Below are positions 5,821 through 8,795 of a stretch of 8,795 bases of DNA, piece after piece. Numbering within the stretch: position 1 is the stretch's first letter; the number at the start of each line of letters is the position of its first letter. Below the pieces are notes generated by a model. The model was not told where the DNA came from. It searched no databases and saw nothing but the letters and a program-made list of their open reading frames with translations. Made by a program: the position numbers and the translations under genes. Source of the DNA: Candidatus Desantisbacteria bacterium CG1_02_38_46 (GTDB taxonomy: Bacteria > Desantisbacteria > UBA1551 > UBA1559); assembly GCA_001871015.1 (NCBI GenBank), contig MNUO01000043.1, positions 1 through 8,795 on the forward strand, written 5' to 3'.

Positions 5821-6349
5821 AAGTTCAAAGTTCAAAGTTTTTATATCCTGTATCCTGTGGATTGTATCCTGCGGACTATTTTTTGGAGGGTGTGTATATG
5901 TTGGTCCGTCCATTTTACCTTCATATATAAAAAAGATAAACATTAACACATTTGCAAACGAAAGTTTTCGACCAGATCTGGATGAAAAAATAACTTCTGC
6001 AGTTACAAGGGAATTCATTGCAGATGGCAGGTTAATCACAACCGGGGAAGATGAGTCAGATGCTATACTGTTCGGGGAAATTAAACGATATGCTTTGGAG
6101 CCGCTCTCTTATACAGAAAAGATGAATGTAGAGGAATATAAGGTTCGCATTATTATAAATATCTGGCTAAAAGATTTAAAACAGAATAAAATCCTCTGGC
6201 GTGAAGATAATATTGAGAGCTGGGCCGCTGCATCTTCCACACAAGGAGGACTTGAAATTAAAGTTGAAAATGAAGCAATTAATGAAGTAGTTGAGAAGTT
6301 AGCAAGAAAAGTAGTGAAAAGAGTTATAGACGGATGGAGTAATATTTAA
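5804..6349 (+). CDS. lptE: LptE-like LPS-assembly outer-membrane lipoprotein
   Basis: 181 residues. LptE plugs the LptD barrel and helps deliver lipopolysaccharide to the outer leaflet of the outer membrane. The N-terminus has a basic region (Lys4, Lys9, Lys11), a hydrophobic core (about 12-27) and a lipobox F-G-G-C with the lipidated Cys at 30. After it come [23 protein letters not shown], a helix ending [34 protein letters not shown] and I-L-W-R-E, then a C-terminal helix [13 protein letters not shown]. This is the alternating pattern of the LptE family; the call rests on that recognition. The ATG has GGGAGG (5792-5797) six bases upstream and lies 17 bases inside pth. Residues 2-23 come from the heptamer repeats, which places two unusual Cys residues (16, 23) in the signal peptide. 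No lptD is in the window. Confidence 0.82.
5808..5871 (+). repeat. Heptanucleotide repeat run across the pth end and lptE signal peptide
   Basis: Successive 7-bp units read AGCTGAA at 5808 and 5815, AGTTCAA at 5822 and 5829, and a degraded AGTTTTT at 5836. After one extra base there are TATCCTG at 5844 and 5851, a diverged TGGATTG at 5858, and TATCCTG again at 5865. Nine units thus cover 64 bases in near-perfect 7-base phase. Because 7 is not a multiple of 3, the units are read in rotating frames and do not give a repeating peptide. The run encodes residues 2-23 of the LptE-like protein and the last residues and stop of pth. Heptamer tandem repeats of this kind are known between genes in some bacteria (for example cyanobacterial STRRs); relation to those is not claimed. 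Confidence 0.8.
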
Positions 6350-8352
6350 TGGGTTTCATACTTTATTCAGGCGGCGTTGGTTTTGCGGGAATATTATTTG
6401 TTATACTTTTATCTTTCTGGATTCTTAGACAGGACCCAGGGACAAAAGAAATGCAGGAAATCTCTGGTGCAATCCGTGAAGGCGCGATGGCCTTTCTGCA
6501 CAGGGAATATAAAGCCATTACTATTTTTGTTATTGTGTTAGCGTTGATTTTAATTTTTGGTATAAATTTATGGACAGGGATTTCTTTCTGTATTGGTGCA
6601 ATCTGTTCGATTGCTGCAGGATATGCAGGAATGCAGATTGCAACAAGGGCGAATACCCGTACTGCTCAAGCTGCAAAAAAAGGATTTAACCATGCCATAG
6701 GTATTGCTTTTCAGGGGGGTGCAGTTATGGGGATGTCTGTAGTGAGTATCGGGTTATTCGCCATATCTTTTCTTTATATAATATTTGCAAAAGCCGGAAT
6801 GGATATGCTTAAGATAGTGAATATTCTGGCTGGTTTCAGTATGGGTGCAAGTTCAGTTGCATTATTTGCAAGGGTCGGTGGTGGAATATATACAAAGGCA
6901 GCGGATGTTGGAGCAGACCTTGTGGGAAAGGTTGAAAAGAATATTCCTGAGGATGACCCCAGAAATGCAGCTGTCATTGCTGATTTAGTCGGAGATAATG
7001 TTGGAGATGTAGCAGGGATGGGAGCTGATTTGTATGAATCATATGTTGGTGCAATCATCAGCAGTTTTATCATTGCGGTTACGACTCTCAAACCAGAAAT
7101 GCAATTTAAAGGTATTACGCTTTCTCTTTTGCTTGCTGCAGGCGGAATTATCGCATCAATTATTGCAACATTTTTTGTGAAAACAGGCACCAAAAATCCC
7201 CAGACAGCATTGCGTAACGGGACAATATCTAGCGCAGTTCTATTTGCAATTGCTGCATTTGTAATTATTAGATTCTGGTACGGTGAAATATCAGTTTTCT
7301 ACTGTGCACTTTCAGGTTTAATTGCAGGAATGACAATAGGATTCACTGCTGAATTTTATACTTCAGGAAAGGCAATTGAAAATATTGCCAGGTCCTCAGA
7401 AACAGGTGCTGCTACAACAATAATCCAGGGTTTAGCAACAGGTATGAAGAGCACAGTTATTCCAATAGCGGTAATTGTTGTTGCTATTTTGATTTCCTAT
7501 TTTTCTGCAGGATTTTTTGGAATTGCCATAAGTGCAGTCGGAATGCTTGCTATTGTTGGAGTAACTGTGGCAGTGGATGCGTATGGTCCTATAGCAGACA
7601 ATTCAGGTGGTATTGCCCAAATGGCTAGCCTTGGGCCCGAGGTTAGAAAAATAACGGATTCCTTAGATTCAGCAGGAAATACCACTGCTGCAATCGCCAA
7701 GGGTTTTGCTATAGGTTCTGCTGCACTAACTGCACTTGCTCTTTTTTCTGCATATATTCAAAGAGTTCAGATAATCTCTCTTGATATAATGGATGCACGG
7801 ATTATTTCAGGACTTTTTATTGGAGGAATGGTTCCATTTGTTTTTGCTGCAATGACAATGCAGGCAGTTGGAAGGTCTGCATTTAAAGTTGTAGAAGAAG
7901 TCAGGCGCCAGTTTAAAGAAATATCAGGGTTAATGGAAGGTAGAGCCCGAGCACAATATGCCAGATGTGTTGACATTACTACTGCTCATGCTCTGAAAGA
8001 AATGATTGTGCCTGGAATAATAGCTGTGGCTCTGCCAATTGGAATTGGAGTGGTGTTAGGCAAAGAAGCGCTTGGAGGATTGCTTGCAGGTTCTCTTGTA
8101 AGTGGAGTTCCTCTTGCAATAAAAATGGCAAATGCAGGAGGTGCCTGGGATAATGCCAAGAAATACATTGAAAAAGGAAATCTCGGCGGAAAGGGAACAC
8201 CGACACACGCTGCAGCAGTCATTGGAGATACAGTCGGTGACCCCTTTAAAGATACAGCTGCTCCTGCAATGAATATTCTTCTGAAGTTAATGGCAGTTGT
8301 CTCGCTTGTGTTCGCTCCATTAATAATTTATCTCCACCAGTATTTTGGCTAA
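6349..8352 (+). CDS. hppA: Membrane-bound ion-pumping pyrophosphatase (K+-dependent type)
   Basis: 667 residues, about 16 hydrophobic segments, inner membrane. It couples hydrolysis of PPi to export of H+ and/or Na+. Signature blocks are [11 protein letters not shown] at 186-196, D-D-P-R-N at 202-206, the acidic cluster [12 protein letters not shown] at 212-223, G-R-A-R before the Y-A-R-C-V-D-I-T-T block, and [11 protein letters not shown] at 626-636. In [10 protein letters not shown] (443-452) the K+-site positions are Ala447 and Ala450, not Lys and Thr, which marks the K+-dependent subfamily. The gate Glu is in D-L-Y-E-S (Glu230), the place used in Na+-pumping and some H+-pumping members, so the ion is open. 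The ATG shares one base with the lptE stop (TAATG), with GGAG (6336-6339) nine bases upstream. The last Gly codon and stop lie at the edge of the downstream repeat. Confidence 0.97.
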
Positions 8353-8449
8353 AAAGGTGTCAGGTCTTGACAAATGACAAATATCAGGACTAAAGTCCCA
8401 AGTTACATGTCAAAGTGGCTAAGAAGGTGTCAAGTCGACCTGACACCTT
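8346..8449. repeat. Nested palindromic repeat element (REP/MITE-like), about 100 bp
   Basis: It fills most of the 111-base gap after hppA. A 13-base arm at 8354-8366 (AAGGTGTCAGGTC) is matched exactly in reverse complement at 8437-8449. A second near-copy of the left arm at 8424-8436 abuts the right arm with no loop, making a 26-base palindrome centred on GTCGAC with one mismatch pair. Inside are a further pair TTGACA (8367) / TGTCAA (8408), a small hairpin GGACT-AA-AGTCC (8387-8398) and a tandem heptamer TGACAAA at 8368 and 8375. Bases 8346-8366 and 8416-8436 also form a 21-base direct repeat with two differences; its left copy contains the hppA stop. No gene is inside, so it would be non-autonomous. 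No T-run follows the palindrome on either strand, so it is not a standard terminator. Confidence 0.75.
8424..8449. repeat. 26-bp near-perfect palindrome, loopless, centred on GTCGAC
   Basis: Left arm AAGGTGTCAAGTC and right arm GACCTGACACCTT pair at 12 of 13 positions. It ends 14 bases before the DUF362 start codon at 8464. It could fold as a cruciform or an RNA hairpin close to that gene's ribosome site, or be a protein site. It is most simply read as one end of the surrounding repeat element. Confidence 0.75.
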
Positions 8450-8463
8450 CAAAAGAGAAATTT

Positions 8464-8795
8464 ATGGCTATTGTTTCAATTGTTAAATGTGATGATTATG
8501 AAGATGCTAAAGTTGAAATCGCTGTTCGCCAGGCTCTTTTTCTTGTTGGCGGTCTACAGGAAGTTGTAAAACCCGGTCAAAAAGTTCTGTTAAAGCCCAA
8601 TATGCTTATGGCTTCAATCCCGGATGATGCTGCTACAACACATCCTTCTATTCTTAAAGCAATGATAAAGATTGTAAAAGAGCGCGGCGCAATTCCATTT
8701 GTCGGAGACAATCCGGGAAATGCCTATGCAAATGTAGACAGGGCTCTTGAAACAACAGGTTTCAAAAAAGTAGTTCAGGAACAGAAAGCTTTGAT
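8464..8795 (+). CDS. DUF362 domain protein, N-terminal part (3' end outside window)
   Basis: 110 codons are visible and the frame is open to the right edge. The protein starts M-A-I-V-S-I-V-K and carries V-L-L-K-P-N-M-L, then T-T-H-P-S-I-L-K-A-M-I-K-I-V-K-E-R-G-A and F-V-G-D-N-P-G, the order and spacing seen at the start of DUF362 proteins. Many members go on to a two-[4Fe-4S] ferredoxin domain, which cannot be checked here; the biochemical role of the family is unsettled. ATG 8464 is chosen because the family sequence begins there, though only a weak purine stretch (AAAAGAGAAA) precedes it. In-frame ATGs at 8407 and 8374 would add 19 or 30 residues read entirely from the repeat element and are probably false. 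The 111-base gap and the element suggest this gene may have its own expression, apart from the operon before it. Confidence 0.8.
   Translation, partial: MAIVSIVKCDDYEDAKVEIAVRQALFLVGGLQEVVKPGQKVLLKPNMLMASIPDDAATTHPSILKAMIKIVKERGAIPFVGDNPGNAYANVDRALETTGFKKVVQEQKAL

Follow-up and report, generated by a model that had tools for sequence, protein, structure and literature searches.

A probable non-autonomous element, rearranged, downstream of hppA with TIRYT-type terminal repeats and a nested REP

The window, an 8,795-nt stretch of the genome of Candidatus Desantisbacteria bacterium CG1_02_38_46, carries overlapping inverted and direct repeats at 8346–8450, at the junction of hppA and a DUF362 gene. 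This raises the question of whether these repeats are a chance arrangement, a regulatory site or a mobile element and, in the last case, what could have moved it. All the repeats named in the original prediction were present: perfect 13-nt inverted arms (8354–8366 and 8437–8449), a 21-nt direct repeat (8346–8366 and 8416–8436, 19/21 matching) and a loopless palindrome (8423–8450, 13/14 paired). That prediction held them to be far beyond chance, which stands for the site but not for the inverted repeat by itself. The latter is only mildly unusual: when the whole 8.8-kb window was dinucleotide-shuffled 200 times, 8 of the shuffles gave a perfect inverted repeat of 13 nt or more inside a 120-nt span. 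It is the genomic copy number and the DNA fold that place the site beyond chance. The 14-nt arm core GGTGTCAGGTCTTG has 71 exact copies in the sampled host genome (1.73 Mb, 133 contigs, 88% complete) and 92 matches with at most one mismatch, versus 2 for the reversed-pattern control, and the fold of the window copy has a z-score of −5.5.

Comparison of the copies gave an intact unit of 71 bp (AGGTGTCAGGTCTTGACAAATGACAAATATCAGGACTAAAGTCCTGAGTTACATGTCAAGACCTGACACCT), a palindrome with perfect 18-bp terminal inverted repeats (TIRs; AGGTGTCAGGTCTTGACA), longer than the 13 nt first given for the arms. The predicted fold of the unit as single-stranded DNA is a single hairpin (−25 kcal/mol, z = −8.8); that of one outer arm alone is weak (−3.2 kcal/mol, z = −1.1). 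The 71-bp composite recurs at eight or more sites, with unrelated flanks and 97–100% identity over 68–71 nt. The genome holds 33 paired copies, several tandem ones and up to about 29 solo arms, a figure that allows two mismatches and includes a few doubtful matches. The interiors of 24 paired copies consist of one to five central-hairpin units, and those of the other nine are of other kinds. Being short, non-coding, bounded by TIRs and present in many near-identical copies at unrelated sites, the element has the structural features of a MITE; no coding capacity was found within the approximately 95-bp window copy, which therefore lacks the TnpA encoded by IS200/IS605 elements themselves. The target preference in the flanks is weak (68% have A at −1). 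In this one 88%-complete genome and the nearest relative compared, G001, which shares only the order with the host, there was no sign of an empty site, a target duplication or a new insertion. A short tandem repeat GACCGAGTAGGTCTT, at about 2620–2680 of L074 (G000:C38), lies immediately upstream of a composite element.

Aligned with the intact unit, the window copy is a damaged and rearranged version of it (Table 1), in which an insertion repeats, with two mismatches, the last hppA bases and the left arm. The original prediction had counted the Gly codon and stop in the left copy as part of the element and had suggested that insertion set the 3′ end of hppA. This view was not upheld. The hppA stop lies outside the left arm, and the C-terminal tails of HppA in relatives differ in length near this point; insertion as the definer of the HppA C-terminus was rejected. 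The element did not supply the stop; the Gly–stop in the second repeat is host flank copied into the element and not the reverse. A role as a regulatory site of hppA was also rejected, since the arm was absent 3′ of hppA in 21 of 21 relatives. Both findings that the original prediction named as refuting it, a single genomic occurrence and conservation with hppA in distant relatives, are thus contradicted.

Table 1. Features of the hppA–DUF362 junction in the window
Feature	Position	Strand	Basis
hppA, H+-translocating pyrophosphatase (host gene)	6349–8352	+	Pfam H_PPase, E = 1.3e-265; stop TAA at 8350–8352
Left terminal arm AAGGTGTCAGGTCTTGACA, TIR of TIRYT kind	8354–8372	+	14-nt core with 71 exact genome copies; TIRYT genes elsewhere are bordered by this arm
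Heptamer boxes, two in tandem, TTGACAA.ATGACAA	8367–8380	+	Lag-7 identity 0.86; layout shared with the TIRs of long TIRYTs
Slightly degenerate GTAR-tagged REP nested in the element (B unit), GTAACTTGGGACTTTAGTCCTGATAT	8381–8406	-	284 genome matches to pattern; flanks RAYT in G001
Right arm, inner part (ATGTCAA)	8407–8413	+	Alignment to intact 71-bp unit
23-nt insertion AGTGGCTAAGAAGGTGTCAAGTC, copy of left flank (hppA end) and left arm, splitting the right arm	8414–8436	+	Direct repeat of 8346–8366; intact unit lacks it
Right terminal arm, outer part (GACCTGACACCTT)	8437–8449	-	Perfect complement of 8354–8366
DUF362 host gene, 5′ portion, 14 nt downstream of element	8464–8793	+	Pfam DUF362, E = 8.6e-14

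The centre of the unit, read on the other strand, is GTARCTCARRNCTTTAG, with 284 genome matches at up to one mismatch (control, 1), and is thus far commoner than the composite. In G001, copies of this central unit flank both sides of a gene for a 160-aa REP-associated tyrosine transposase (RAYT). The tag GT[AG]G, expected at the hairpin foot of GTAG REPs and REPINs, is absent from the outer arms, which have GGTG or GGGG; the inner B unit has GTAA or GTAG. By these features, the centre can be assigned to a GTAR-tagged REP of a separate RAYT system. The element is a composite of two repeat systems, which the original prediction had not recognised. Another repeat family was seen at L031 (G000:C60:8541-8867), where AAAAAGGGGACG-type repeats flank a degraded RAYT-like gene with an in-frame TAA.

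Of 386 bacterial genomes sampled, 60 contain the arm GGKGTCAGGTCTTG; the reversed-pattern control was near zero. In all six of the arm pairs examined with a spacing of 0.9–1 kb, the arms enclose the gene of a REP-associated Y1 tyrosine transposase, and on this basis the outer arms are TIRs of the known TIRYT/TIRtron kind (TIRYT, TIR-associated Y1 HUH tyrosine transposase). The six genes encode Y1_Tnp with a C-terminal HTH domain, annotated as Bac_DnaA_C in L142, L143 and L145 and as HTH_23 or HTH_38 in L140, L141 and L144; their NCBIfam name is REP_Tyr_transpos (L143 just below the cut-off, L141 at 70 bits). Thus, both parts of the original proposal, a MITE- or REP-like non-autonomous element with many copies at gene ends and a Y1 transposase flanked by the same arms, agree with the data, the former through the copies across the host genome and the latter through loci in other genomes. 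The nearest TIRs are those of L142/L161 and of a TIRYT from a Desulfatiglandales MAG (L173), which has AAGGTGTCAGGTCTTGACATTTGACATAA at each end; a few bases within the boxes set them apart from the focal arm. A TIRYT with GGTGTCAGGTC arms was not found in the 88%-complete host genome. The only intact long TIRYT there, C109, is uninterrupted, sits between a stop and a start codon and has GGGTCAGACCTCAAC arms, which occur in 9 exact copies versus 71 for the focal core; its enzyme is 49% identical to that of L173. The GGGGWSAS tip is present in GGGGTCAG arm variants from this genome and elsewhere, and the focal GGTGTCAG is one base off; dispersal as singles, dimers and clusters is also as in TIR repeat families. 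In a literature search, the arm 11-mer occurred in seven papers, none of which, judged by title, is about repeats or transposases.

Flank copying of the kind seen in the window was found in 2 of the 33 paired copies of the host genome (the window copy and C100). This count is not significant (permutation mean 0.69, maximum 4), and flank copying was rejected as a general feature of these copies. Similar flank-plus-arm duplications are present at the ends of TIRYT loci L141, L142/L161, L181, L183 and L184, with the target flank and arm tip tandemly repeated just outside; L183 has three ACACATTGGGGTCA-like units. Around TIRYT loci, 11 arm-tip copies were counted in the 2970 nt adjoining the TIRs versus 7 in 22268 nt farther out. 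It is these TIRYT ends, together with the individual cases, that suggest a link between flank copying and the element.

For comparison of the ends, TIRs were tabulated for 41 TIRYTs of 260–345 aa, of which 27 with anchored ends were classed as long (at least 300 aa). In the long TIRYTs, two tandem 7-bp boxes with a consensus of about TTSACWT come after the conserved tip. Identity at lag 7 was 0.67, whereas 2000 position shuffles gave 0.30 ± 0.03 with a maximum of 0.40; at other lags it was 0.35–0.40 at most. The Pfam Bac_DnaA_C subset by itself, which includes no members from G040, the genome contributing most elements to the table, gave 0.64. The seven shorter TIRYTs, in which the tail is of HTH type or was not recognised, gave 0.30 (Mann–Whitney p = 4.5e-4). 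Many long G040 members have no Pfam DnaA match, yet match the profile of DnaA-type tails; HTH-tailed members match this profile too, more weakly on the whole. Heptamer similarity tracks whole-protein similarity (Mantel p = 0.008), and the association of the box with the C-terminal domain beyond that with the core gave a partial Mantel r = 0.03 (p = 0.40), so tail and core are not separable here. The TIR layout with two tandem 7-bp boxes, common to the long TIRYTs and the focal arms, is new.

We tentatively suggest a bipartite reading of these TIRs, possible though somewhat short of an even chance, in which the GGKGTCAG tip would serve the HUH/Tyr core and the two element-specific boxes a DnaA-domain-IV-like C-terminus. 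Such an identity code would let several TIRYT lineages and their miniatures coexist in one genome, and the focal family would be one such element that also carries the REP of a second system. In G040, at least 12 distinct long TIRYTs (L230–L250) each have their own TIR box sequence, which suggests coexisting TIRYT lineages. In the host genome, the heptamers of solo or short arms at L095, L096, L081 and L088 are of other types (TGCTTTG, TGAATTG, TGAGTTG), which suggests that there are several TIR subfamilies. A shorter TIRYT class (215–235 aa; L188, L193, L198, L254–L262) differs from the heptamer type, its GGGGACA/GGGGACG TIRs lying within A/T-rich, near-palindromic arms.

Nearly all copies lie in gaps between a stop and the next start, mostly (24 of 33) between co-directional genes. 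Based on ORF scanning and our own count, about 31 gene 3′ ends face a paired element; the stop is inside the arm in 16 of them (mostly TGA at +13 or +20) and at most 10 nt outside it in 13, and many downstream starts are 14–22 nt from the element. The heptamers place stops in successive frames, and insertions in the last codons are therefore survivable. The placement fits selection in short gaps; selection alone may account for it, and target choice may contribute. The same placement, along with the strong fold, would suit an RNA-level job at operon junctions, such as a transcript-end hairpin, mRNA stabiliser or attenuator, with repetition owed more to selection than to transposition. We regard this as improbable, given that none of the 21 relatives keeps the arm with hppA, that an Rfam search returned no match, that the sole terminator-like match is on the minus strand within the B hairpin and that the same arms flank transposase genes. 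A promoter or terminator role was likewise set aside: the element has a single match of promoter type (TTGACA..TAAAGT, 10/12) and a single one of terminator type, a weak excess over the 0.7 and 0.3 expected in the 400-bp region.

Taken together, we propose, with a probability of about 0.8, that the window sequence is a rearranged non-autonomous MITE/REPIN-like element moved in trans, with the TIRs of a TIRYT (TnpA-Y1 subclass 2.1) as its ends and the GTAR-tagged REP of a RAYT system as its centre. The element would become single-stranded on the lagging strand, where the paired arms would fold into one hairpin. Then, a TIRYT acting in trans would recognise the tip and the two boxes at each end, cleave the element and rejoin it elsewhere, with the inner REP carried along. 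Since the arms are short and contain stops in every frame, most surviving copies would be those lying between a stop codon and the following ribosome-binding site. At hppA, a later template-switch-like event at the hairpin would have copied the left flank and left arm into the right arm, and this copy is therefore probably no longer mobile.

As a variant of this proposal, not exclusive of it, the resident C109 TIRYT could mobilise the copies in trans despite its GGGTCAGACCTCAAC arm. In favour of this, C109 is the only intact long TIRYT in the host and resembles the enzyme of L173, which has TIRs close to the focal arm; against it, the C109 arm is far rarer than the focal core and its box sequences differ from those of the focal arm, so that we consider this variant rather unlikely. 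Replication slippage and template switching at hairpins, with no transposase, could explain the tandem reiteration of the centre in many copies and the copied flanks of the window copy and C100. However, such events cannot put the same 71-bp composite at unrelated loci, and as the source of the repeats they are very improbable; they may lie behind the later rearrangements.

The element proposed here is of a known kind, and what is new is the combination of REP and TIR and the layout of the ends. TIRtrons have a GGGGWSAS motif, and their TIR repeats, called "moderately abundant", occur as singles, dimers and clusters (Di Nocera group 2013, PMC3733652, available passages). The focal family resembles them in the fit of its GGGGTCAG variants, in flanking Y1 transposases and in its dispersal; it differs from the families in those passages in its higher copy number, its nested foreign REP and its tandem heptamers, of which they make no mention. 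The Pseudomonas TIRs that join a degenerate GTAG-1 unit to unrelated stem-loops, described in the same paper, are also a REP combined with another repeat, whereas the focal REP is central between two TIRYT TIRs and the whole composite is dispersed. As in REPINs and GTAG REPs with their RAYT, the inner B unit is tagged (GTAR), hairpin-forming, abundant and, in G001, RAYT-flanking; unlike them, the outer arms lack a GTAG tag and each folds weakly alone. The enclosed transposases share the Y1_Tnp core and C-terminal Bac_DnaA_C or HTH_23/28 domain of TnpA-Y1 subclass 2.1 (Quentin et al. 2018, PMC6006769). That study found no REP-like sequences near subclass 2.1 genes, whereas matching TIRs and scattered non-autonomous copies were found here, and it left open the substrates of these transposases and the targets of their DnaA-like/HTH C-termini. 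The arms, the scattered copies and the two-heptamer layout offer concrete candidate substrates for subclass 2.1 enzymes, in a family where one repeat system is nested in another and both are dispersed together.
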